Assembly (NCBI GenBank): GCA_020444165.1
Contig: JAHLLK010000004.1
Span: 83,178-147,177, forward strand
DNA from: Deltaproteobacteria bacterium
Lineage (GTDB): Bacteria > Desulfobacterota > Desulfarculia > Desulfarculales > Desulfarculaceae
Direction: 5' to 3'
DNA: 64,000 nt
Shown here in pieces: positions 14,073-64,000 of the stretch; the stretch's first letter is position 1, and each line of letters begins with the position of its first letter. The notes beneath the pieces are model-generated. The model saw only the letters and a program-made list of their open reading frames with translations, searched no databases and was not told the origin of the DNA. The position numbers and the translations under genes were made by a program.

Positions 14073-17000
14073 GCCGCGGCCCTCCTTTGCCTTCTGCTCT
14101 CCAGGGTATAGTAAACCACGGGAATCAGCACCAAGGTCACCAGGCTGGAGATGCTGAGCCCGCCCAGAATGGTGATGCCCAAGGGGTTCCAGGTCTCCGC
14201 GCCTTGGGCGCGGCTCACCGCCATGGGCAGCATGCCGAAAAAGGTGGTGAGGGTGGTCATGAGCACCGGGCGCAAGCGGTCGCGTCCCGCTTGCACCACC
14301 GCCTCCCGGAGCGGCACCCCGCGGAGCCCCAGGAGCCGGGTGTAGTCCAAGAGTACGATGGCGTTGTTCACCACAATGCCCAAGAGCATGATCACTCCCA
14401 TGAAGGTGATGACCCCCAGGGTGACCCCGGTGAGCCGGAAGGCCCAGATCACCCCCACGAAGGCAAAAGGCACCGCGAACATGATGATCAGGGGATCGCG
14501 GAAGTTGCCGAACAGGGCGGCCATGACCATGTAGGTCAACAGGATGCCCAGGGCCAACAGGATGCCCAGGTCCCGGAAGGCCTTGTCCTGCTCCTCCACG
14601 TCACCGCCAAAGGCCAGGGTCACCCCCGGCGGGAGGTTCAGGCCGTCCATGACCCGCTCCAGGGCCTGGCGAGCCTGGCCCAGGGAGATGCCGTCCAGGG
14701 CGGCCTCCACCCGCACCACCTTTTGCAGGTTCTTGCGCTCCACCTCGATGGGCCCCCGCTGTTCGGACACCTGGGCCACGTCCCCCAGCCGGAGCCGGCG
14801 GCCGTCCGAGGTGAACACGGGGACTTGCAGGAGCTGGTCCAGGCGGTCCTTGTCCGCGTCAGAAAAGCGGGTGAAGATGTCGTAGTTGTCCCCGCCGTCC
14901 CGGAATTCGCTGGTCTTGTAGCCGTAGAGGTAGTTGCGGACCTGCTGGGCCACCACCCCCACGGGAAGCCTCAGGAGCGAGGCCTTGTCCCGGTCCACCT
15001 CCACCCAGATTTCCGGCCGGGGGTCCTTCTGGCTCACGGTCACATCGGCCAGGCCGGGCACCTGCCGGGCGCCCGCGGCCAGGCGGGCGGCCACGTCCCG
15101 GTTGTCCTCCAGGTCGGCGCCCTGCACCTCCACCACCAGGGGCTTGGCCCCGGTGCCGCTCAGGATGGAGCTGACCGGGTCCACGGCCAAAACCCGGAGC
15201 TGGGTGATGCCCGGCACGCGCTGGATGCGCTCCCGGAGGAGCCCGGCGATGGCCGTGGCCGAGCGCTCGCGCAATGCGGGGTCCACCAGCTTGAAGCCCA
15301 GGGAGGCGGCGTTGGGGCTCTCGTCAAAACCCAAGGCCACGCCGATGCCTTCCTCGGACTGGCCGCACCAGGCATAGAGGCTGCGGAACTCCGCGGGCCG
15401 CACCACCCCCATGACGTCGGCCACCACCCGCTCCACCACCTTCTTGGTTTCCTCCACCCGGGTCCCTTCCTCCAGGCGGAAGTCCACGCTCACGTCGCCC
15501 GAGTCCTGCTCGGGCATGAACGAAGTGGAGAGGAAAGGCGCCATGCTCACGGCCGAAAGCAGGGCCGCCCCGGCCAACGCCGCCACCAGCCAGCGCCGCT
15601 CCAGGCTCCAGGCCAACAGCCGGGCGTAGCCCTCGTCCAGGCCGGTGAAAAGATGCTCGGCCGCCGCGGCCAGGCGGCCCGGCGGGGCCGGCGGCGCTGC
15701 CGCTCCCCCGGAGGCGGGCGCTTTGCCCCGCAGCCAGCGGGAGGCCAGCATGGGGGTCATGGACAGGGCGGTGAACAGGCTGGCCCCCAGGGTGACCGCG
15801 ATCACGAAGGCGAGCTGCTTGAAGATCACCCCCACCAGGCCGGTGAGGAACACCATGGGCAGGAACACCACCACGGTGGTGGCGGTGCTGGCCACGATGG
15901 CCAGGCCCATTTCCTGGGCCCCCAACACCGCGGCCACCCCGGGGCGGCCGCCCCGCTCCAAATGGCGCACGATGTTCTCCAGCACCACGATGCCGTTGTC
16001 CACCACCATGCCGCAGGCAATGGCCAGGGACATGAGCGACACCAGATTCACGCTGTAGCCGTTCAGCTGCATGAGGATGAAGGCGATGAGCAGGGAAAAG
16101 GGGATGGTCAGGGCGATGATCACGGAGCTCTTGACTCGCCGGAGGAAGATCCAGGTGACGAGGGTGACCAGCGCGATGCCGGCCAAGAGGGAGAACCTGA
16201 GGTTGGCCACGGCCGAGAGGATGTTCTCGGCGTTGTCCATCACCACCTGGATCTTCACGTCACCGGGCAAGCTATGGGACAGCTTGGCCAGACGCTCCCG
16301 CACCTCTTCCACCACGGCCACGGTGTTCCGGCCGCTCTGCTTTTGCAACAGCAGCACCACCGCCGGCCGGCGGCCGGACCAGGCCAGGAGCTCCTCCGGC
16401 TCAAAGGCGTCGGCCACCTGGGCCACCTCACCCAGGCGCACCGGCCGGCCCTGGTGGGAGCCGATGACCGTCCGGCTCATCTCCCCGGCCGAGGCGTAGC
16501 GGCCCGGCACCCGCACGTAGTACTCCAGGGGCCCCACCTTGGCCGCTCCGGCCGGCAGGTTCAGGTTCTGGGCGGCCAGGACCCGGTTCACCTGCTCCAG
16601 GCTGAGGCCGAAGCCCTCCAGGCGGGCCCGGTCGAAGTACACGTTGATGCGCCGCCGCAGCCCGCCGTAGATGAGGATGGCCCCCACCCCGGGCACCCGG
16701 CGCAGCTCATCGGCGATGACCTTGTCCGCCAGGCGGTAGAGCCGGGGCCAGTTTTCCCGGGCGGTCACGGTGAGGAACATCACCGGCGCGGTGGCCGAGC
16801 TGAACTTGTAGAGCACCGGGGTCTCGGCGTCGTCGGGCAATTTGCGCCGGGCCAGCTCCAGCCGGTCGCGCAGGTCGTTGGTGGCGTTGGCCAGGTCGGT
16901 GCCCCAGTCGAAGCGGCAGGAGACCACCGAGAGGTTGTCCACGCTCTTGGAGGTGAGGGTGTCCAGGTTGTTCACCCCGTTGACCTGGTCCTCGATGCGC

Positions 17001-53121: not shown

Positions 53122-54273
53122 ATGGACTTCGAACTATCCATGGAGCAGGAAATTCTGCGCAATACCGTGCGGAACTTCGCGGAAAAGACCATCAAACCCG
53201 TGGCCCGCCAATTGGACGCCCGGGAAGAATTCAGCCTGGACACCCTGGGGGCCATGGGCGAGCTGGGGCTGTTCGGCATGGTGGTGAGCGAAGCCTACGG
53301 CGGACAAGGCATGGACTATATCTCCTACATCATCGCGGTAGAGGAGATCGCCCGGGTGGACGGCAGCCACGCCGCCACCGTGGCCGCCGGCAACTCTCTG
53401 GGTATAGGACCTCTTTATTATTACGGAAGTGAGGAGCAGAAACAGAAATACCTGCCCGACCTCTGCACCGGCCAAAAGCTCTGGGGCTTCGGGCTCACCG
53501 AGCCCAACGCCGGCAGCGACGCCGGCGGCGCCCAAACCACCGCCGTGTTGGACGGCGACGAATGGGTGATCAACGGCTCCAAGATCTTCATCACCAACGC
53601 CAGCACCCCGGTGACCGCCGGCGTGACGGTGATGGCCAGGACCGGCCCCCGCGACAGCGCCCGGCCGGAGCTTTCCTGCATCCTGGTGGAGGCCGGCACC
53701 CCGGGCTTCGAGGCCCGGCCCATGCACGGCAAGATGATGTGGCGCTCCTCCAACACCTCGGAGCTGTACTTCGACGACTGCCGGGTGCCCAAGGAAAACC
53801 TCCTGGGCGAGCGGGGCAAAGGGTTCCACCAAATGCTCGAAACCCTGGACGCGGGCCGGCTTTCCATCGGGGCCATGGGGGTGGGCGGCGCCCAGGGCGC
53901 CTTTGACCTGGCCTTGAAATACGGCCGGGAACGCCAGCAGTTCGGCAAGCCCATCAGCTCTTTTCAAGTAAACGCTTTCAAGCTGGCGGACATGGCCATG
54001 GAGATCGAGGCCGCCCGCCTGATCCTCTACAAGGCCTGCTGGCTCAAGGACAACCACAAGAATTTCAGCAAGTCCGCCGCCATGGGCAAGCTATATGCCT
54101 CGGAGGTCATGGGCCGGGTAGTCGACGCCGCCGTGCAACTGCACGGCGGTTATGGTTTGATGCAGGAGTACGACGTGGAGCGCTTCTACCGCGACCAGAA
54201 GCTCCTGACCATTGGCGAAGGCACCAGCGAAATCCAACGTCTGGTCATCGCGCGGCTCATCGGCGCCATCTAG
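53122..54273 (+). CDS. Acyl-CoA dehydrogenase
   Basis: A 383-residue flavoenzyme that introduces the 2,3 double bond in an acyl-CoA and passes electrons to electron-transfer flavoprotein. Motifs: YGGQGMDYISYIIAVEEIAR, the FAD/substrate motif FGLTEPNAGSDAGG and WVINGSKIFITNA in the beta domain. RQQFGKPISSFQ and the catalytic Glu366 in TIGEGTSEIQRLVIARLIGA (short/medium-chain-type position) are in the C-terminal helices. ATG 53122 follows CGGAGG; ATG-like codons upstream are less likely. It stands alone, without etf genes. The exact acyl chain cannot be deduced. Confidence 0.93.
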   Translation: MDFELSMEQEILRNTVRNFAEKTIKPVARQLDAREEFSLDTLGAMGELGLFGMVVSEAYGGQGMDYISYIIAVEEIARVDGSHAATVAAGNSLGIGPLYYYGSEEQKQKYLPDLCTGQKLWGFGLTEPNAGSDAGGAQTTAVLDGDEWVINGSKIFITNASTPVTAGVTVMARTGPRDSARPELSCILVEAGTPGFEARPMHGKMMWRSSNTSELYFDDCRVPKENLLGERGKGFHQMLETLDAGRLSIGAMGVGGAQGAFDLALKYGRERQQFGKPISSFQVNAFKLADMAMEIEAARLILYKACWLKDNHKNFSKSAAMGKLYASEVMGRVVDAAVQLHGGYGLMQEYDVERFYRDQKLLTIGEGTSEIQRLVIARLIGAI

Positions 54274-55177
54274 CCCGCGGGGAAGGCGGTTCTCCGGCCG
54301 TTCCGGCCCGCGGGACGGCCGGACCCGGACCTTCCCCCGAGGGGGCGGGGCGAGGGCGGGGGAGCGGTGGCGGCAGCCCGGGGCCACGTCCCCGCCTCGC
54401 CGGGCGCGGGGTGGTCCCCCTGTGGTCTCCCCGGGCGCGGCCGGAGGCGGGCTCGGGGCGCCCCACCCACCCGCGTGATCTCCGGCCCGGCCAGTTTGTC
54501 GGCGCCGGAGCCTCTCAGTTTGGAAACATTCCCATCTGCCTGGACTAGTCTCAAAAATATGCCGCCCTGGGGGGCGGACCCGGCGGCATTTCTCAACCTT
54601 CTTTTCACATGTTTGGAATATTTCGTTGACACGTATTTCACTAGGTCATTATTCTGGAAACTGAGGTGGTTGCCCAGCGGAAGAGGCAAAACGTCCCCAG
54701 GTTGCGCAACACCCCACACCCGGGAGCGGGAAACCGGTGGCCCCGCCGGAAAGGCCCCGGATATTCGTCCCGGTTCAGAGGCCGGTGCCACCGGAAGTTG
54801 CCCCTCCGGAGGGTGCCGGCCCGTCCCGTGATGCGCTGTTGCGTTTGACGGACGGCGGCCAACCAGCCAGGCAGAGGCGCCCAGGCCCTATTTCCAACCA
54901 GCCCCGGGCTGGTTGGGGGCTCCGCGGGGAAGAGCGCTCCAGGTTGCGCCGCTTGGGCCACGCAGGCAATTTCGTAATATTGTTTGGATTTGGCCAAGGA
55001 CGGCCATTTTCCATACCCAGCTAGCAAGGGTTGGCAGGAAGCCTCCAGGACGTGGCTCACGTTGGGACGACCCCGGGAAAACGGGGCCGGGCTCGGGCCC
55101 CTGACCCAACCCCATACTGCCTCGGTAGGGGTGATCTTCTCGCCGCGCCCACCCCCCGCCGTCCAAGGAGCCTCTCC
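54274..55177. other. 900-bp gene-free region with promoter-like boxes and hairpins
   Basis: No supported reading frame. TTGACA (54626-54631) with TATTCT (54650-54655) makes a fair plus-strand promoter. Downstream are a near-perfect CCAACCAGCCC/GGGCTGGTTGG palindrome (54891-54913), GGCCAAGGACGGCC (54982-54995) and two CCAGGTTGCG boxes (54697 and 54939) that also occur in copy 1 of the 72-nt element (44854). It may encode an untranslated RNA or carry decayed intergenic elements; I cannot decide between these. Confidence 0.35.
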
Positions 55178-55588
55178 GTGCAAGTTCCCAATATGAACGA
55201 AGGCCTCGGTTTGGCGGCCCAGTACCAACCCAAGGTGGTGGTGGTCGATGACGAACCCTTCGTCCTGGGCCCCATGGCGGGCTACCTGAGCCACACCTTC
55301 GCGGTCAGCGCTTTCAGCGATCCGGCCAAGGCCCTGCAGCATCTGGAGCATTGCGACGCCGACTTGGTCATCGCCGATTACGCCATGCCCCAAATGGACG
55401 GCTACACCTTCATCACCCGGGCCCGCCGCCTGCAACCCTGGGTGCGCACCATGATGATCAGCGGCCAGTACTTCCTGGAAAGCGGCATGGACAGCAGCGA
55501 CGCCTCCACCGTGGTGGACGCCTTCATCACCAAGACCGCGGGCATGGCCTCCCTGGAGTCGTGCTGTAGGCGGTTATTGGGGGTGTAG
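55178..55588 (+). CDS. Single-domain response regulator (receiver)
   Basis: A 136-residue receiver domain: acidic pair D24-D25 (VVVVDDEPFVLGP), phospho-acceptor D67 (LVIADYAMPQMDGYTF), switch Ser in TMMISGQ and Lys119 in FITKTAGMASL. The usual Lys-Pro is Lys-Thr here. No output domain. GTG 55178 is chosen because AAGGAG is seven bases upstream; ATG 55193 is the alternative. Its C-terminal half is duplicated in the pseudogene at 57399-57638. No kinase is nearby. The Cys pair near the end (SCCRRLLGV) is unusual for this family. Confidence 0.85.
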   Translation: MQVPNMNEGLGLAAQYQPKVVVVDDEPFVLGPMAGYLSHTFAVSAFSDPAKALQHLEHCDADLVIADYAMPQMDGYTFITRARRLQPWVRTMMISGQYFLESGMDSSDASTVVDAFITKTAGMASLESCCRRLLGV

Positions 55589-55979
55589 GGGGCGGGAGCC
55601 GAATCCCCCTCCCGGCTGGAAGGCCAAGGGCCAGCGGCGGGAGGGGCGGTGGCTGACTCGGCCGCGCACCACGCCGGAAATCTCTTACAACCTCTTGGTA
55701 TCCAAAACAAAATCAGCAACCAGTGCGGGAGGGCGCGACTGCGGCCCGGCAAGCCGGAAGTGTCTCTGCCCCGTTGGAACCGGCCACCGGCCACCTCCCC
55801 ATCTTACCAGCCTTCTCAGTCACCATTTTTCCTCGCCCAACCCTCTGGCTGCTTGCCTCCAGATCTTCGCTACACTTGGGGAATAGGTGGCAGGTTTGGC
55901 GGCAGCCGACCCCCTGGCAGGTGGAACATTTTCCTTTGGTCAAAATAGGCCACGCCACTTGCCGTCCAGCCCGCCCCCT
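55589..55979. other. Spacer without a gene
   Basis: Mixed-composition spacer between convergent genes. The first bases after the receiver stop (GGGCGGGAGCCGA) resemble those after the pseudogene at 57639, extending the duplicated segment. Nothing else is recognised. Confidence 0.4.
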
Positions 55980-56330
55980 TCAGTCGTCCAGGAACTCGCT
56001 CACCAAGCGGTTGGCGGCCTTGAGCCGGTGCAGCAGACGATCACAATGGCGGATGCGGCCGACGGAGTGCAGGATCAGATAGCAGGCGAACAGAAAGAGC
56101 AGGCCATTGACCACCAGGAACGGAATGGCCAGGTGGGGCACCTCCAGCAGGGCGTAAGAGCGCGAGGAGACGATCAGCAGGGCCAGGATGGCCAACTGGG
56201 CCAGCAGGATGAAGATGCCGGTACGCACCACCATCAGGGCGGTGGTCTTCTCTTCCAATAACAGCTTGATCTCGTCGATCAGCAGCAGCGTGGGCTGGCC
56301 CGAGCCCTCCGGGCGGCGAATTTCCGGCAT
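55980..56330 (-). CDS. Small two-helix membrane protein of unknown function
   Basis: A 116-residue protein: a soluble N-terminus (PTLLLIDEIKLLLEEKTTAL), helix 1 at about 36-55 (GIFILLAQLAILALLIV), helix 2 at about 65-88 (IPFLVVNGLLFLFACYLI) and a basic/acidic C-terminal helix (IRHCDRLLHRLKAANRLVSE). ATG 56330 has GGAGG eight bases upstream. GTG 56360, which overlaps the TauE stop (GTGA), is the alternative and would add ten residues. It is in one transcript with the TauE gene and may be an accessory to it. I do not recognise the family. Confidence 0.65.
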   Translation of the reverse strand: MPEIRRPEGSGQPTLLLIDEIKLLLEEKTTALMVVRTGIFILLAQLAILALLIVSSRSYALLEVPHLAIPFLVVNGLLFLFACYLILHSVGRIRHCDRLLHRLKAANRLVSEFLDD

Positions 56331-56356
56331 GCTGACGGCCTCCGGCTTGAGGTTGT

Positions 56357-57187
56357 TCACCACACTTGCATGATAATGCGCACCCCCACCAGGCCCAGGG
56401 CCAAGGCCAGGCTGCGGATGATCCAGCCGCCCTTCAGGTGGTTGGAGAGCAGCGCGCCCAGCTGGGCCCCGGCCACCACCCCGATGGCCAGGGAGATCAT
56501 GTGGTGGGTGCCGTGGGCAAAGGAGCTCTCCAGCACGTGCACCAAGGTGCCGGTCAGGGCCATCACCACCAGGATGAAATGGGAGGTGGCCGTGGCCACG
56601 TGCACCGGGAAGCCCAGCAAGTAGACCAGGGCCGGCACGTGGATGATTCCCCCGCCGATGCCCAGGAAGCTGGAGAGATAGCCCACCCCCAGGCTGATCC
56701 CCACCCCCAGCACTGGATTGAAGGCATAGTCAAAGGCCTGGCCGTCGGCCTCCACCAGATGGCGGGCGGTCAGGTGACCGTTGTGGGCCGCGGGGTGGTT
56801 GTGGGCCTGCCTGGGTTTGAAGGCCAAAAGGGCCGCGCCCGCCACCAGCAGCACCCCGAAGATGACGTCAAAGAGCCGGCGCGGGACCAGGCTGGTGTTC
56901 AGGGCCCCCAGCACTGCGCCGGGGATGGTGGCCAGGGCGAAGAGCAGGCCCGAGCGGTAGTCGATGCGCCGCATGCGGGCATAGGCCTCGGAACCCGACA
57001 GGGCGTTGAGAAAGACCACCGCCAGGGAGATGCTGGTGATGTTCTCCGGCGATTCGTGGGGGTAAAGCAGCAGCAGCACCGGCATCAGCACGAAGCCGCC
57101 GCCGGCCCCAATCAGGGTGCCGAAGGCCCCCACCCCCAGACCCAGGGCCATGAAGCCCAGGTAGATTTCGGGATTCCAGGCAGTCAT
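56357..57187 (-). CDS. TauE/SafE-family anion exporter
   Basis: A 276-residue permease with about eight membrane helices in two homologous halves. The half-repeats begin GFMALGLGVGAFGTLIGAGG and GISLGVGYLSSFLGIGGGII, the GxxxGxxGxGGG pattern of the TSUP family. A His-rich loop lies between them (RQAHNHPAAHNGHLTARHLV). Members move sulfite, sulfoacetate, thiosulfate or similar anions; in a sulfur-metabolising anaerobe this would fit, but the substrate is not shown. ATG 57187 is preferred over an upstream start at 57217. Coupled to the small membrane protein gene. Confidence 0.88.
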   Translation of the reverse strand: MTAWNPEIYLGFMALGLGVGAFGTLIGAGGGFVLMPVLLLLYPHESPENITSISLAVVFLNALSGSEAYARMRRIDYRSGLLFALATIPGAVLGALNTSLVPRRLFDVIFGVLLVAGAALLAFKPRQAHNHPAAHNGHLTARHLVEADGQAFDYAFNPVLGVGISLGVGYLSSFLGIGGGIIHVPALVYLLGFPVHVATATSHFILVVMALTGTLVHVLESSFAHGTHHMISLAIGVVAGAQLGALLSNHLKGGWIIRSLALALGLVGVRIIMQVW

Positions 57188-57398
57188 CCTTGCTGATCCT
57201 CGCGGCGGCCGGGGCAAGCACCGGGACGCTCTCTCTTAGTTAAGTATGGTAGGCCGGGGCGGCCGGTGGTTCAAGGGCGGGCAGGCCGTAATGACCAGAT
57301 TCCGTATTCTTAGACCCCCAACCATGGACAACGGCTACGGCGCGGATAAATCTGGCGATCAGCTTGGGCTCCCATCCGGCAGGGGGCGGGGGCAAGGA

Positions 57399-57638
57399 TC
57401 AACGAAGGCCGCGGTTCAGCGGCCCAGGAGCAAGCCAAGGTTGGTGGACGGCTACGCCTCCATCACCAAGGCACGCCGCCTGCTCCCCTGGGTGCGCACC
57501 GTGATGATCAGCGGCCAGAATGTGCCGGAAAGCGTGGTGGATAGCTGTGACGCATCCACCGTGGTGGACGCTTGCGGCACCAAGACCGCGGGCATGGCCT
57601 CCCTGGAGTCCTGGTGTAGGCGTTTGCTGGGGGTGTAG
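57399..57638 (+). pseudogene. Truncated duplicate of the receiver gene at 55178
   Basis: The segment 57400-57440 matches the start of the receiver gene at 55196-55235 (AACGAAGGCC..., CCAAGG), but the ATG is now ATC. The match then jumps to the GGACGGCTAC region (copy 55396, here 57446) and continues to the same stop context (SLESWCRRLLGV against SLESCCRRLLGV). A 155-bp stretch including the phospho-acceptor Asp is missing. Because 155 is not a multiple of three, the halves are in different frames, so it cannot make a receiver domain. The conserved C-terminal codons suggest the copy is not very old. Confidence 0.8.
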
Positions 57639-58071
57639 GGCGCGGGAGCCGAGCTACCTCGCATGTACGAAAGTCCGGCAGCGAGGAGCGGCGGGGCACT
57701 GCTGCCGCTTCCCACAATAGATACTCCTACCTAAGATTTCCCATCCAGGGGAGCGCAGACTGCCCCCTAACTCTCTCAATTTCCAATTCAAGGCCTATTG
57801 CTGGACGATCATTTCTGCCTCTAGGGGCGCAAGAAAGGGGACAAGAGGTGGGAGAGATGCAGCCGGAACAGTAAGTTGACTTTGTCACTTTCAATACGAA
57901 GCTACTCCACCAAGGACGCAACAGGAAAGAGAGGGCCCCCTTCCAGACTTTCTCAGATGGCCTAAAAGACTAGAATCCGGAACCAGAAAAGTCCGATACT
58001 AAATAGGCTGCCCAAACGCACCCGGTAGGATTCTACTGTCAGACGAATATCTTCACAGTACAGGAAAAATG
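57639..58071. other. Spacer at the edge of the AT-rich island
   Basis: The sequence moves from GC-rich to AT-richer around 57720-57900. No gene, tRNA end, direct repeat or integrase is visible, so the junction of the island cannot be fixed precisely. Confidence 0.4.
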
Positions 58072-61000
58072 TTATTTAGCTAAACGTAGAGGGGGTATTT
58101 CGGGTGAGTCATTGGTATCAGCCTGAACGGAATACCATTTCACACGTGTCCCCCTCGACAAAAGAGCTATCTCAGTTTCTACAATTGGCTCACCGCTTGC
58201 AATAATTTTAATGGCTTCTGGTATGTTTACGTGTTTTATCAACTCATCAGTACCGACAACTATGAAGGAATGATCATCGCAATGCTTTTTTTCAAATTTC
58301 TCAGTTCCTTTTTTTATGCGACTGAAATGCTCCCAAAACCTTTCCCCATTTACCTCGGTTCCTGGTTCGGCTCTATAAACTTCGGTACCAACAAATGAGC
58401 AAGGTATTAAATACATTCTTACCTTGAAATCCTTAAAACATTTGGCAGCATCCATGATATTTTCATACAATCTAACCATATAATCTCTGGCAAATTTTCC
58501 AGAAAAAAACACATGTTTTTCGTCGTTAAAAGAGAATTTATCTCCGTTCCAACAGTAGATTTCACAATCATTTTTTCTGGCTAGGATTGTAATTGTGTTG
58601 ACTATTTGGTTGATAGTCATTTTAAACCTACGCGTGGTTTCCCTTGTGGCATCAACTGGCTTACCTATTTTGCCAGATTTTGTTGCAGTCGAGTCTACGA
58701 TATCATACCACAATAGATATTGGTATTTATGTCTATTGACAAATTTTCCATAGTCCCTAGTCGTAGAATCTATAATTTGTGCCATACCCAATACTCTAGG
58801 CAAAAATCCATGTAATTTGGCAACCGCATAATTATAAATATCTTCTGGTTTTACCGAATAAATATCTTCCCTTATGAGTTGTTCAAATCTATCTTGTATC
58901 TTATCTGTTATTGCTTTTTTCTTAAAACCCATTTCCAGAAAATCTTGATTAAATTTCACCATTTTACTAACAACCAGTTTCGCCTTAAAGACAGCATCGT
59001 CTTTTTTATTATGACTACCCAGAGTCAAGGCAATTTCTAGCATATATATGTATGTAGATAATTCCCATATTATCAATGAGGCTTCATTTATTATCTGATT
59101 AAAATATACTCGTTCGTCAGTCAGCTCATTATCGAGGAGGTCTATAAAATAACTTTTCCACTTTCGAGCAATAAAATCATTGCCGAAAAGCTCACACAGG
59201 TGATCAACACCAGTTAAGACAACTTCTCGAAGTTGGCCTTTTATATAGGCAATTATTTTCATTCTTGAAGATTGTACTGTTTCATATCCCGTGCTGCCCC
59301 TCAGCTCTTTTAATATAGGCTGAACTGTCCCAGTTTTTCCCCATATTATCTTCTGACTCATTCTAGGCCATGAGTGATTAAAAAAATGCCCGGCAATAGA
59401 CAACTCTGCAGAGATCGCAGCGGCCATATTTCTTGGAGGCCAGCATGTCGCCAAAGTAATCAAATCCGAATCCTCATATATGCCAACACGGTTATCGCCA
59501 TCCTTGTTGGAAGCATGTTTTGGTGACCGCAGCTCTTTGGGGCGGTATAAATATGCTAAAATTGCACCTAGATCCCTAGCTTCTTCTGGTGCGTTCTTCG
59601 TAATATAATTGCCTTCGATCTTCTCTCCAAGGCCATAACCCTTATGGGGTACCTCAATTATGGCCTTTCTCTCCAGTAAATACGATGATAACCACACTTC
59701 ATTGTCTGACCTGCTAGCGCTACCCCGAGACAGCACTGGGACGGCGCCTTTCAGATGGAAGCCTATTCTAGCAACACCATCGTAACCACTAACGCCAAAT
59801 ATAGGTTGAATAAACTGTTTTGCGATTCCAATTTTTATTAAAAAAACGATCAGTTTTTCTAATACCAACTTAGGTATAGTTGTACGCTGACTTGTTTTTA
59901 AAAAACTTTCAACCGCAGTATATGACAAAGAAAGTTCACCGTCAGAAAAAAGTACATCTTCTCCATATCTATAGCCTCTGTAGACAATTTTATTATGAAT
60001 ACATGAAACAGGTACTGCGACTCCGTAATCAACACATAAATCCAGAACAAGGCTAAACAGGTTCGCAAAACTATGAGAAGGTTTTTGTTTTAAAACAGCT
60101 GAAACGTGATCAACAAGGCATTGCCATGGTATGCCAATTTCGAGTCTATCTCTGTTAAAAATATCTCCCATTTCTTCTTCATAGTATTTTGAACCCAAAT
60201 TTTTAGCTTTTTCTCTCGCCGGACCTTCCAACTTCTTATGCATCTTTATAAATATTTCAAAAAACAGCGCAACCAAATTACCAATCGATTCTTTCTCATG
60301 GTCGCCTTCAAATATTAAATTTATATCAGAGAGATCTTTACTCAAAATATTTTTTGCATTATCCTGGACCTCTACGGGCAGCAAATATGTTTTAATTGGA
60401 TCTAGTTCGGCAACTTGCACAGGTGCTGGTTTAGAGGAAATAAATTGAGATATCCCTAACTGCAATTTTTCAAGACAGTCATGATTCCACGGCCCGAAAG
60501 AACGTTCGCAATGTATTAAATCAGAACGAAAAACTACTGAATGTCCAAGTGCATTCGAAAGACTATTCGTAAATATGTGCCCCAGAATAGTGCTAAAAAT
60601 GTACTGTAATAGTCTTAGTTTTGCAAATGGTGTCCTCATAGAATAGAGTAAATCATAAAAATTGTGCCCTACGCTCTTTCCAACAGCACCCAAATAATAT
60701 TCCAGATAATCGGAGAGACCCTTTTCGCTTAAAGGTTTTAATGTTACTATGGGCACTATTTTTGTCCAATATATATCTTTAATTGTCCTAGAAAAAGTTC
60801 TTACTTTTATTATATCGGAAAGGTTTAATATGTTGTTATCGATACCATTCAATTGACTATAGACAATATCTGTCGGGAAAAAGCTAAACAAGTGAACGCC
60901 ATTCGTAGTCTGAAATTCAGATGATATGCGAATACTATTCCAATCGACGGAAGACAAAAACATGCTGCTATCCGGAATCCTAATTTTATAGGGATCGGAA

Positions 61001-61482
61001 ATCGGAAAATCAACCAAGTAAGGCCTTGGCAACAAGGACATCGCCCGCACTTCCGAAGCACAAAATGTCATCATTTGATTGTGACTATATTCAAGAAAGT
61101 TTCTATCGGGTTTAATTAGCGCTCTGTTCCAGTTATCCACATCAACACACAACGTGGTTACTGACACATTTGTGCTAACACTATTTAACAATTTGTGCTT
61201 GGTTTTACCTAGTGTTGTACCGCAAATCAGAGTGTCATCAATCAACGCAATATTTTTGTTTTTCAAAACGTCCAAATTTATATCAAGGATTCTATCGCTT
61301 GCGATAATAATTTCAGAACTTGGCAATCCGATGGAAGTAAAAACATCATACAAACACAATGATTTTCTCGCCATAAAAATTAATATATCTGCATCAAGTT
61401 CGCTAATGTATTTCGTAAATTCAATCACAGCTCTAAGGGAAGAGGGGTCAAATTGATTTAAAATTAGCTTTTGGAGTGGCAC
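58072..61482 (-). CDS. Large PRTase-like/nucleotidyl-cyclase-like fusion protein
   Basis: An 1136-residue protein in a gene far more AT-rich than its surroundings, so probably acquired. Near the N-terminus DADILIFMARKSL and IALIDDTLICGTTL (about 78-91) match the PRPP-binding loop of phosphoribosyltransferases; LLPRPYLVDFPISDPY follows. The middle (about 180-900) is largely helical and unfamiliar. Residues about 918-1075 look like a class III nucleotidyl cyclase: YLLWYDIVDST (Asp927), YCWNGDKF (Asp981) for the second metal, and TEVNGERFWEHF (Asn1045/Arg1048) near the transition-state pair. GTG 61482 follows AAAGGA; TTG 61497 is possible. It stands alone. A stress or phage-defence role is a guess. 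Confidence 0.6.
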   Translation of the reverse strand: MPLQKLILNQFDPSSLRAVIEFTKYISELDADILIFMARKSLCLYDVFTSIGLPSSEIIIASDRILDINLDVLKNKNIALIDDTLICGTTLGKTKHKLLNSVSTNVSVTTLCVDVDNWNRALIKPDRNFLEYSHNQMMTFCASEVRAMSLLPRPYLVDFPISDPYKIRIPDSSMFLSSVDWNSIRISSEFQTTNGVHLFSFFPTDIVYSQLNGIDNNILNLSDIIKVRTFSRTIKDIYWTKIVPIVTLKPLSEKGLSDYLEYYLGAVGKSVGHNFYDLLYSMRTPFAKLRLLQYIFSTILGHIFTNSLSNALGHSVVFRSDLIHCERSFGPWNHDCLEKLQLGISQFISSKPAPVQVAELDPIKTYLLPVEVQDNAKNILSKDLSDINLIFEGDHEKESIGNLVALFFEIFIKMHKKLEGPAREKAKNLGSKYYEEEMGDIFNRDRLEIGIPWQCLVDHVSAVLKQKPSHSFANLFSLVLDLCVDYGVAVPVSCIHNKIVYRGYRYGEDVLFSDGELSLSYTAVESFLKTSQRTTIPKLVLEKLIVFLIKIGIAKQFIQPIFGVSGYDGVARIGFHLKGAVPVLSRGSASRSDNEVWLSSYLLERKAIIEVPHKGYGLGEKIEGNYITKNAPEEARDLGAILAYLYRPKELRSPKHASNKDGDNRVGIYEDSDLITLATCWPPRNMAAAISAELSIAGHFFNHSWPRMSQKIIWGKTGTVQPILKELRGSTGYETVQSSRMKIIAYIKGQLREVVLTGVDHLCELFGNDFIARKWKSYFIDLLDNELTDERVYFNQIINEASLIIWELSTYIYMLEIALTLGSHNKKDDAVFKAKLVVSKMVKFNQDFLEMGFKKKAITDKIQDRFEQLIREDIYSVKPEDIYNYAVAKLHGFLPRVLGMAQIIDSTTRDYGKFVNRHKYQYLLWYDIVDSTATKSGKIGKPVDATRETTRRFKMTINQIVNTITILARKNDCEIYCWNGDKFSFNDEKHVFFSGKFARDYMVRLYENIMDAAKCFKDFKVRMYLIPCSFVGTEVYRAEPGTEVNGERFWEHFSRIKKGTEKFEKKHCDDHSFIVVGTDELIKHVNIPEAIKIIASGEPIVETEIALLSRGTRVKWYSVQADTNDSPEIPPLRLAK

Positions 61483-62285
61483 GATAAGTCCTTTCAATTA
61501 GACGACACGAATGTTATTCACAGTTCAATCCTCACTATCAGGTTCTGACAAGCTTGTAATTTGGCTTTGAATCATTCAGCTAGAAGAAAACAGCCTATCT
61601 CAATCTCATTGTGGAACAGCCTAGCCTTAACCACATCACCAAAGGATCAATAATTAGTGAATCAGACGTATGTAACGGTATTCTAGGTACATCTCTCCGC
61701 AGGCCCAGGCTTGTCGGTATGCGCTACTCGCATATAACTTACGGTAATATTTGACTTAAATTGATTGCGGGCCAAGAAACTTGCCATGGCGTCCCCCCGG
61801 AAAAGCCTCGGTCCTAGTCCTACACAAATTAGTCCATTGGTCGTACCATAGTCAATACAGATTTACTTACACCGTGGCATCTCGTTTTCAGGCTTTGATT
61901 ATAAACTTGCGTTCAGGAGGTATTACCTTTAATAACTAAGTAACCGGTCCATAATTAATAATTAGTCAACCAATTAGAAATATGGGTCTTTTGACCTTGC
62001 TTAGTTCTGTGAAACCCAACTATCGGGCTGTTCAGCATGAGATATCGATAAAGACATTCATCGCAAACTTAGCCCAGGGCAAAGTTTAAAGAGAACACAT
62101 ATCTCGAGAGGACATCTAAGCGTTAACTCGTAATAACAATGCGCAACCCGCTGTCAGGCTGAAGAATCTTTTATGGTGGATATTATGTCATATCAATAAC
62201 CCGCTGAGACATAAGGTGATTTGCCGATCTCTCGGTTAGACCTTCCAAACTTCTGGAGCCAGCCTCCCCTCCCCCCCCCAAATAA
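61483..62285. other. 800-bp AT-rich region without genes
   Basis: No open frame of useful length on either strand, yet the composition matches the neighbouring large gene, so it is probably part of the same acquired block. It would contain the promoter of that gene (minus strand). I see no repeats, tRNA or strong hairpin; decayed genes or an untranslated RNA remain possible. A C9 run sits at about 62271-62279. Confidence 0.4.
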
Positions 62286-62315
62286 AGCGGCGCGAGCCCT
62301 CAGGCCCGCGCCGCT
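62286..62315 (-). terminator. Intrinsic terminator after the XRE-cupin gene
   Basis: AGCGGCGCG (minus strand, 62315-62307) pairs with CGCGCCGCT (62294-62286) and is followed by TTATTT. It lies 34 bases after the stop of the XRE-cupin gene and also marks the boundary to the AT-rich island. Confidence 0.8.
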
Positions 62316-62348
62316 GATCATCGCTCTCAACCGTTTCCCGCCGCGCCG

Positions 62349-63032
62349 TTACTTGTCCTGGCTGAAGATCACCGCCACGATGCGGCAGGGCTGGTCGCCG
62401 TGGGGGCGGACCAGGTGGGGCACGTTGGAATCATAATAGATGCTGTCCCCGGGGGTCAGCACCTCCCGGGCGTCCTCCACCAGGGCCTCCATCTCGCCTT
62501 CCAGCACGAAGATGAATTCCTGGCCCTCGTGGGCGGACGGCGGTACGTCCTCGTGCACGGGTTGCAGGGTCACCAGGAACGGCTCCATGGCCCGGTTGTT
62601 CTTGTGGGGGGCCAGGTGTTCGTAGGTGTAGCCGTACTTCGTGCCCCTTTGCGCGGCGAAGCGGCTCATGGCCTGGCGCTCGTCCGCCCGGACCACGGTG
62701 TAGGCGCGCTCCTCCCCGCTGGAGATGAGGGTGCCGAGCTTCATGTCCAGGGCCCGGCCCAGCTTGACCAGGGTGCCCAGGGGCGGGCTGGCGGTGTCGG
62801 CCTCGATCTCGGCCAGGACCTCCTCCGTGAGGCCGGTGCGCTGGGCCAAGTCGCCCAGGCTGAGGCCCTTTTCCTGCCGGAAGCGGGAGATCCGCTGGCC
62901 CAGGGGCGCCGCCGGGGCGGTGTCCTCCCGGGCTCCTCCCGCATGCTGGGCGACATCGTGCAGGAAAGCGGTCTCCCGTTCCGTGCTGATGCCTACCCGA
63001 TCCCGTACCGCCTGTTGGTCATCCTGTGCCAT
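62349..63032 (-). CDS. XRE-family regulator with C-terminal cupin domain
   Basis: A 227-residue regulator. The N-terminal tail (about 1-45) is followed by an XRE helix-turn-helix (ISRFRQEKGLSLGDLAQRTG, then LTEEVLAEIEADTASPPLGT) and a C-terminal cupin barrel (EPFLVTLQPVHEDVPPSAHE, GQEFIFVLEGEMEALVEDAR, LTPGDSIYYDSNVPHLVRPH). The cupin probably binds a small ligand or metal. Proteins of this build often control metabolic operons. ATG 63032 has GGAAGGG six bases upstream. It follows the oxidoreductase gamma gene by 22 bases, so it is probably cotranscribed and may regulate that operon. Confidence 0.88.
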   Translation of the reverse strand: MAQDDQQAVRDRVGISTERETAFLHDVAQHAGGAREDTAPAAPLGQRISRFRQEKGLSLGDLAQRTGLTEEVLAEIEADTASPPLGTLVKLGRALDMKLGTLISSGEERAYTVVRADERQAMSRFAAQRGTKYGYTYEHLAPHKNNRAMEPFLVTLQPVHEDVPPSAHEGQEFIFVLEGEMEALVEDAREVLTPGDSIYYDSNVPHLVRPHGDQPCRIVAVIFSQDK

Positions 63033-63054
63033 CGCCAACCCTTCCTGCTCCAGC

Positions 63055-63606
63055 TCAGGCGGCTTGGCCGCGGATGAACTCGGAGCCTTTGTACAAGGCC
63101 TGGGTGTTGGCGGGGATAAGCTTGTGATAGCGCTGGTCCAGGGCCGTCGGCAGGCAGGAAATCACTTCCTCCACCGTCAGCGCGCTGCTGGCCTCCGCCA
63201 CCGCACCCAGCATGACCATGTTGGCCAGGCGGGGATTGCCCACCTCCTGGGCCAACTCCATGCAAGGCACCATGCTCACCCGCCGGGCGGGAGTCGAGAC
63301 GTACTGCGCCTCCACCAGGCTGGAATTGACGAACAAGTGCCCGTTTTTCTTGACGCGGGGCCCGAACTTCTCGGCCGAGGGCCGGTTCATGACCACCGCG
63401 GTCAGGGGTTTATGAATGATAGGCGAGCCCACGGGGCGATCGCTGATGACCACGGTGCAGTTGGCCGTGCCTCCGCGCATCTCCACCCCATAGACCGGCA
63501 TGTAGGTGACCTCCTTGCCGGCCTCCATGGCCGCGTAGGCCAGGACATTACCCATGAGCATGACGCCCTGGCCGCCAAAGCCCGCAATGATGGTATCAAA
63601 ATACAT
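63055..63606 (-). CDS. 2-oxoacid:ferredoxin oxidoreductase, gamma subunit
   Basis: A 183-residue subunit of a pyruvate/2-oxoglutarate-type ferredoxin oxidoreductase. It starts MYFDTIIAGFGGQGVMLMGN, the GxGGQG motif of the gamma family, and carries VTYMPVYGVEMRGGTANCTV and the MVMLGAVAE segment. The complex oxidises 2-oxoacids to acyl-CoA and reduces ferredoxin in anaerobes. ATG 63606 is preceded by GAGGAG ten bases away. The beta subunit gene lies just upstream; the alpha gene must lie outside the window. The exact 2-oxoacid (2-oxoglutarate, branched-chain or other) cannot be told. Confidence 0.9.
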   Translation of the reverse strand: MYFDTIIAGFGGQGVMLMGNVLAYAAMEAGKEVTYMPVYGVEMRGGTANCTVVISDRPVGSPIIHKPLTAVVMNRPSAEKFGPRVKKNGHLFVNSSLVEAQYVSTPARRVSMVPCMELAQEVGNPRLANMVMLGAVAEASSALTVEEVISCLPTALDQRYHKLIPANTQALYKGSEFIRGQAA

Positions 63607-63623
63607 CCCTGTCGCGCTCCTCG

Positions 63624-64000
63624 TCAATCAGCGTAGCGGTCCTTGAATTGTCCCAGCGGAAAATAGGCGGCCATTTCGTTGCCCACCCGGCGGTTGGCTT
63701 CCAGGGCATCCATTTTCCAGTTGGTGGGGCAAGCCGAAAGGAACTCCACAAAGGCGAAGCCCCAACCGTTCACCTGGTACTCGAAGGCGCGGTGCAGAGC
63801 CTTCTTGGCCTTGTTCAAGTTCTTGATATCGTTGACAGCCACCCGAGCGGCGAAACCGGTGCCCTCCAAGGTGGCCAGCATCTCGCACATGCGGATGGGC
63901 AGGCCCGCCTCCTCGGCCTTGCGGCCATAGGGGCTGGTGGTGGTGACCTGGCCCTCCAGGGTGGTGGGGGCCATCTGGCCGCCGGTCATGCCGAACACCG
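63624..64000 (-). CDS. 2-oxoacid:ferredoxin oxidoreductase, beta subunit, 3' part
   Basis: The last 125 codons of a thiamine-pyrophosphate-binding beta subunit; the gene begins beyond 64000. MFGMTGGQMAPTTLEGQVTT is the conserved M-T-G-G-Q stretch of KorB/VorB-type subunits, followed by FEYQVNGWGFAFVEFLSACP and TNWKMDALEANRR. The stop is 17 bases before the gamma start, consistent with one operon and with the alpha-beta-gamma gene order. Confidence 0.9.
   Translation of the reverse strand, partial: VFGMTGGQMAPTTLEGQVTTTSPYGRKAEEAGLPIRMCEMLATLEGTGFAARVAVNDIKNLNKAKKALHRAFEYQVNGWGFAFVEFLSACPTNWKMDALEANRRVGNEMAAYFPLGQFKDRYAD

Follow-up and report, generated by a model that had tools for sequence, protein, structure and literature searches.

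A PRTase and cyclase-fold fusion protein on an AT-rich island, and its family of probable anti-phage alarm proteins

What does a 1136-residue protein do that stands alone on an AT-rich island of a GC-rich deltaproteobacterial genome? The window analyzed here (the whole stretch of 64,000 nt from a Desulfarculaceae contig) contains such an orphan gene, which a first-pass annotation, made from sequence, had described as a fusion of a phosphoribosyltransferase (PRTase)-like and a nucleotidyl-cyclase-like domain. Comparison with its relatives places the protein in a family that probably raises an alarm against phages and whose output ends seem to be interchangeable.

The gene, its island and its distribution

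The ORF at 58072..61482 (minus strand) is open for 1136 codons from a GTG start and encodes 1136 aa plus a stop. Its longest form (58072-61497) starts at TTG and has 1141 aa; the database copy, P0001, likewise has 1136 aa, and an AAGGA at 61489-61493 (minus strand), directly upstream of the GTG, looks like a ribosome-binding site and may act as one. The gene had been described as strikingly AT-rich and alone with its own spacers, and this proved correct: its GC content is 0.370 (GC3 0.329) in surroundings of ~68% GC, where 272 gene-length segments left of the island had a minimum of 0.639 (mean 0.679, sd 0.022). In 150-nt steps, GC was ~0.5 or lower across 57750-62249. No other convincing gene lies within this island, the longest frames outside the gene being 52 aa (61500-62220) and 64 aa (touching 57750-58071), and an Rfam search of 54000-64000 gave no match at E <= 1. 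Both motifs quoted by the first-pass annotation were found in the translation. The features are as follows.

57750..62250, no strand: AT-rich island with the gene inside and no other convincing gene (GC steps, ORF listing)
58072..61482, minus: gene of the PRTase-middle-cyclase protein, 1136 aa, GTG start (ORF listing, protein search, GC)
61033..61455, minus: PRTase-fold domain, residues 10-150 (structure model, fold match)
61210..61251, minus: PRPP-loop-like motif IALIDDTLICGTTL, residues 78-91 (ORF; D82, D83 and G88 kept in 78/78 cyclase-clade rows)
58744..60969, minus: conserved middle, residues 172-913, mostly helical (structure model, hhalign)
59953..59982, minus: family signature, residues 501-510, consensus YRAYRHGEDV, here YRGYRYGEDV (row counts)
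58120..58743, minus: cyclase-fold domain, residues 914-1121 (structure model, fold matches)
58690..58710, minus: first cyclase motif WYDIVDS with D927, residues 925-931 (D927 in 78/79 rows, D930 in 75/79, S931 in 77/79)
58516..58533, minus: second motif SFNDEK, residues 984-989, with S984, D987 and K989 (each 79/79)
58318..58356, minus: E1043..G1046..E1051..R1055 stretch (64, 75, 70 and 69 of 79 rows)

The genes flanking the island look ordinary and metabolic by eye. One flank holds genes for an acyl-CoA dehydrogenase, part of a response regulator, a small membrane protein and a permease resembling TauE/SafE; the opposite flank has oxidoreductase subunits next to a regulator of the HTH-cupin type. 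The segment 57398-57652, adjoining the island, repeats parts of the upstream response-regulator gene at 55193-55602 (208 nt at 86% and 44 nt at 84% identity) and resembles a decayed partial duplicate. As part of the whole reading that we favor, we lean towards horizontal acquisition of this foreign-looking gene. Gene GC was below locus GC in all 16 family loci listed.

A protein search with the window protein yielded 47 other proteins at E <= 1e-3 that were 29-40% identical to it; 45 of the 47 were 1100-1179 aa long, and relatives of such similar length indicate a conserved protein rather than a chance frame. A profile search listed 65 proteins, three with TIR domains. Of 130 pattern matches in a scan of species genomes, 27 proved to be family loci, and a scan of viral contigs gave a single locus. 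No match was found among plasmids with the window and L007 proteins, or among phages with the L004 protein. At L008 (4095-6596), the frame of a 50%-identical relative ends after 277 aa, beside transposase-like ORFs (by eye). L028 (3733-13790) is a viral-contig record of a PNP-ended member, with genes that look by eye like tape-measure and integrase genes.

The family is conserved yet sparse. Cyclase-type members occurred in 2 of 38 genomes of one genus; in other groups there was one full-length match in 196 genomes, one in 299, two in 293 and one in 341. The group of 196 genomes had 17 further matches confined to the PRTase region, and a group of 321 genomes had two matches, one of PNP type. 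The starting genome is counted among the matches in each of these surveys.

Folds and conserved residues of the two end domains

An AlphaFold2 model of the 1136-aa protein (pLDDT 88, pTM 0.88) contains the fold of the type I PRTase superfamily at residues ~10-150 and that of class III cyclases at ~914-1121, so the fusion is real; the two folds had been anticipated at residues 20-170 and 918-1075, respectively. Single-sequence searches of the window protein against Pfam, PADLOC, NCBIfam and PDB returned nothing useful, but a family profile searched against PDB placed PRTases first (best E 0.009). A ComF match (E 0.29) and matches to viral core-antigen chains (E 0.4-1.7) in the single-sequence searches were judged to be due to chance. 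A viral fold search gave nothing at E <= 0.001, and its best rows showed only separate PRTase or cyclase domains.

In the PRTase domain, R39, D82, D83 and G88 were present in 78/78 rows of the cyclase clade and were kept throughout the family, including members with PNP or TIR ends. The PRPP loop of the cyclase clade retains the acidic pair, the Gly and the subsequent T/S, and lacks the T/S before the Gly: residue 87 (61222-61224), which we take to be the position where PRPP loops usually carry T or S, was L, V, C, I or A in all 78 rows and never S or T, whereas S or T stood at the equivalent position in 90 of the 92 effector-clade rows that have a residue in that column. This contrast hints at a different ligand or lost catalysis. 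No match of the window protein was found to PRTase-CE (PF24390), a name that reportedly comes from a 2020 survey; five relatives scored 15.7-18.7 bits, below the curated cut-off of 27 bits. In the signature YRAYRHGEDV of the middle, R502, G507 and E508 were present in 187/187 rows and R505 in 186, and hhalign showed that the C-terminal part of the middle is common to PNP-fused relatives. The PRTase domain and the middle form a platform common to the cyclase clade and its sister clade.

One alternative lies outside defense: the protein might be a regulator of stress or metabolism, in which a nucleotide-pool signal received by the PRTase domain would be linked to a second messenger. PRTase folds are found in housekeeping regulators such as PyrR, AncGREENPyrR was among the fold matches of the window protein, and the neighbors in the window are metabolic genes by eye. 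However, a sparse occurrence (2/38 in one genus, and one or two cyclase- or PNP-type matches per 196 to 341 genomes elsewhere), relatives with effector domains and neighboring defense genes argue against such a regulator, and we regard it as quite improbable.

The first-pass annotation had also assigned Asp927 and Asp981 as the metal-holding pair of a class III cyclase. The first residue stands: D927 was kept in 78 of 79 rows, with an E in the remaining one. The second is doubtful: Asp981 was present in only 40/79 rows, while Ser984, Asp987 and Lys989, as well as R1022, were present in all 79. In the model, the third strand of the domain starts at 988, and residues 980-985 have pLDDT < 50. We think that D987 has probably replaced the usual Asp of the GD motif. 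Against this view, in an hhalign comparison with six class III cyclase domains, D981, not D987, fell on the second Asp in an alignment that was not significant (Prob 0.4%, E 0.14); these six domains came from the genomes of two relatives, in which 12 loci were collected, eight tried and six found usable. E1043..R1055 is positioned like the DxxGxxVNxxxR stretch of class III cyclases. By sequence the domain went unrecognized by the cyclase model (Pfam PF00211) and the PycC model; PADLOC gave 0 families for the window protein, and a search with a profile of seven cyclase domains returned no cyclase.

With the S/D/K set in place of the second Asp, the chemistry of the domain may not be cyclization. 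An alternative is a defense protein whose C-terminal domain is itself toxic and directly consumes or modifies nucleotides, with the membrane protein PycTM as an optional partner. Besides the second Asp, which is not kept, and the different invariant set, this explanation draws on the window gene, L001, L002 and L004, none of which has an adjoining PycTM, and on fused PNP and TIR domains, which act directly as effectors according to passages of PMC10952713. On the other hand, the cyclase fold and the first Asp motif are retained, and PycTM adjoins the gene in 4/8 cyclase-type genomes and in 0/17 sister-clade genomes. We consider direct toxicity unlikely.

Exchangeable ends in the sister clade

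Fifteen relatives from L009-L028 were scanned with Pfam (L016, L019, L022, L026 and L027 were left out). PNP (PF01048) was over the cut-off in nine of them (L009-L013, L017, L023, L024 and L028) and below it in L014 and L015; L018 carried TIR_2, L021 a CAP12/Pycsar-type TIR, and L020 and L025 no named Pfam end. In seven of the loci scanned, the end matched an effector or PDC model of PADLOC. TIR domains were found in P0080, P0082 and P0083, and a further profile search listed 94 proteins, most of them PNP-ended, with TIR_2 in nine besides P0080 (precomputed Pfam). Many PNP- or TIR-ended members among those listed carry generic names or none.

The domain preceding PNP is homologous to the window cyclase domain (hhalign E 2e-9 for a slice, and 4e-28 when a longer stretch was compared). 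The modeled C-terminal half of L012 (pLDDT 86.7, pTM 0.59) showed a similar strand order followed by an MTA/SAH-nucleosidase fold; because nucleosidases made up all of the best 50 VIA-align matches listed for it, its cyclase-like domain rests on the profile comparison and the strand order. The motif pair was present in 78/78 cyclase-ending rows and in none of 80 PNP, 14 TIR and 15 other rows, after removal of three duplicates and the half-length P0048 and with L014 and L015 taken as PNP. An earlier count had given 78/79 and 0/113, where the single miss was P0048 (629 aa), lost to a position filter. In the sister clade, then, a cyclase-like domain that has lost the motif residues precedes a PNP nucleosidase or a TIR domain, both of which are effectors known from abortive infection.

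In a FastTree phylogeny of residues 1-880, cyclase and effector rows were separated by one change, which makes the contrast in motif and effector one event; the states cyclase, PNP and TIR needed five changes. With the 15 unlabelled rows as their own group, the tree showed 12 changes for PNP, two for cyclase and five for TIR, with a total of 16. FastTree gave long-branch warnings for P0175, L023 and L014, for P0078 with P0081, and for L017 with L023. P0078, P0081 and P0156 have neither the cyclase motif nor PNP or TIR. In P0078, residues 817-885 weakly resemble GreA/GreB (E 3e-4, short of the cut-off), and the end of P0156 is, by eye, a glycine-rich, membrane-like stretch.

These fused ends also bear on a further possibility, in which the C-terminal domain would control a PRTase that is itself the toxic part, a role proposed for the PRTases of type III retrons and the DprA-PRTase system. 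Portions of PMC9122126 and PMC12548924 present PRTases as likely effectors, both in retrons and alongside DprA. In our family, R39, D82, D83 and G88 are kept, and PADLOC gave weak ShosT matches in L028, L024, L014 and P0078. However, members ending in PNP or TIR have an output of their own and still retain the same PRTase residues, so the PRTase looks like a constant, sensor-like part; moreover, residue 87 is S or T in 90/92 effector-clade rows and in none of the 78 cyclase-clade rows. A toxic PRTase is, in our estimate, very unlikely.

Turning to the neighbors, PycTM (PF18967, Pfam cut-off 27.2 bits) adjoined four cyclase-type genes. It was divergent in L003 (E 2e-13), in L005 (E 3e-11) and in L042 of genome G039 (54.3 bits, the sole PycTM match of that genome); in L006 the adjoining frame (119 aa, 30.2 bits) matched the C-terminal part of the model only. 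L007 has a 200-aa candidate overlapping the gene start, at 17.6 bits, below the cut-off. No adjoining PycTM over the cut-off was found in L001, L002 (whose contig ends ~360 nt downstream) or L004. The seven genomes of L001-L007 held six PycTM matches over the cut-off, three of them adjoining, and two of the 17 effector-type genomes held three matches (frames of 419-438 aa), none adjoining by contig position. The difference between 4/8 and 0/17 genomes gave p 0.006 in a one-sided Fisher test, and p 0.017 (3/7) without G039, a second genome of the same genus.

Known defense genes were found near some relatives. For example, a complete Gabija pair, GajA (E 2e-272) and GajB (E 5e-252), lies upstream of the L007 gene, separated from it by two small genes; JetC and JetD (Wadjet) lie 2-7 kb from the L003 gene; the L001 gene is followed by a type I methyltransferase and by a PDC-S02 protein; and within ~6 kb of the L006 gene there are a PDC-S15 protein and a weak match to PycC (E 1e-9). 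The latter is a separate, weakly PycC-like gene at 14337-15755 (PADLOC E 1e-9), ~1 kb from the PRTase-cyclase gene. Adjoining the cyclase-type member in L002 (4354-9344) are two Trypsin_2 proteins, one of which (1278 aa) also has Endonuclease_NS and Peptidase_S8 domains. Portions of PMC12799240 describe nuclease-protease pairs with an MBL-type nuclease; we rejected these as an explanation of the L002 neighbors, whose domains are Trypsin_2, Endonuclease_NS and Peptidase_S8.

The first-pass annotation had proposed to test whether homologues cluster with defense genes, and such genes do lie near some relatives (PycTM in 4/8 cyclase-type genomes, and Gabija, Wadjet or type I restriction-modification genes at some loci). 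Neither PycTM nor another recognizable effector was found near the window copy, and PADLOC gave no effector among six neighboring ORFs, of which the regulator matched HTH models. A decayed PycTM, sought with a three-relative profile on six-frame fragments of 54001-64000, gave a best E of 0.04 near 57.2 kb and nothing significant. The segment 61500-62250, where three relatives hold the divergent PycTM, has no ORF > 52 aa (to 62220) and no PycTM remnant.

Proposed function and comparison with known systems

The reading that we favor, with modest confidence, is a horizontally acquired and probably anti-phage single-chain sensor-cyclase, whose PRTase and middle switch on a non-canonical cyclase that signals to PycTM. 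Infection would alter the ligand or state of the PRTase/middle part, upon which the chains would dimerize and the cyclase domain would convert an NTP to a cyclic or related nucleotide. This nucleotide would open a PycTM-type membrane effector, and growth would stop, as in Pycsar. For the window copy, which has no effector at its side, the partner would be encoded at a distance, be a different protein or have disappeared; this copy may also work by itself or persist as a relic whose frame is still intact. The earlier idea of a nucleotide-signalling enzyme, possibly a defense or stress module gained by transfer, is supported in part by the fusion, the effector-fused kin, the defense neighbors, the sparse distribution and the low GC, and is doubtful at Asp981. 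More tentatively, with somewhat less than even confidence, the family may be an undescribed immune platform, in which a PRTase-type ligand sensor and the conserved YRAYRHGEDV middle of one chain would drive outputs that can be exchanged. In one clade this output would be a cyclase whose active site has moved and that makes a (perhaps new) cyclic nucleotide for PycTM; in the other, a dead cyclase would relay to PNP or TIR.

If true, cyclic-nucleotide defense would include another cyclase type with its own sensor in the same chain, and a single protein would then give access to both trigger and signal. Comparing a live cyclase that has a partner effector with a dead one fused to its effector would reveal how a second-messenger step is gained or lost, and the PRTase as the constant part would make the role of PRTase domains in phage defense testable.

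Among known systems, class III nucleotidyl cyclases (PF00211) share the fold and the first Asp motif; unlike them, the domain is missed by the Pfam model, its second Asp position is not kept, and S984, D987 and K989 are invariant. Type III retrons, ShosTA/DprA-PRTase and Pfam PRTase-CE likewise have a PRTase domain in a defense setting (portions of PMC9122126 and PMC12548924). However, no reverse transcriptase or DprA partner was named beside family genes among the neighbors listed, and PRTase-CE scores were absent or below the cut-off. A PRTase-cyclase fusion was not found in the portions of these two papers, nor was such a build described in titles and abstracts of open-licence literature, where mention elsewhere is possible. 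PRTase is among the abbreviations for validated systems in a figure legend of PMC13092281 (DefensePredictor), which gives no details for a comparison. In contrast to the PNP/TIR effectors of CBASS, Detocs and further systems (Cap17 and others), the window protein has no such domain and carries a cyclase-fold end in place of the dead counterpart; membership in CBASS was rejected, as no Pfam or PADLOC match of the window protein to a CD-NTase was seen at E up to 10. In Pycsar, as sections of PMC11224242 describe it, cUMP or cCMP from a cyclase switches on either PycTM, which acts at the membrane, or PycTIR, which depletes NAD+. The window protein differs in its size, 4-5x that of a solitary cyclase domain, in carrying a PRTase and a long middle on the same chain, in its metal-site loop and in lacking a PycC model match; PycTM is mostly divergent rather than in one operon, and none is present at the window gene. 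In common with Pycsar, the family has a class-III-cyclase fold, a PycTM gene adjoining the cyclase-type gene in half of the eight genomes and, in one sister-clade member (L021), a fused CAP12/Pycsar-type TIR.
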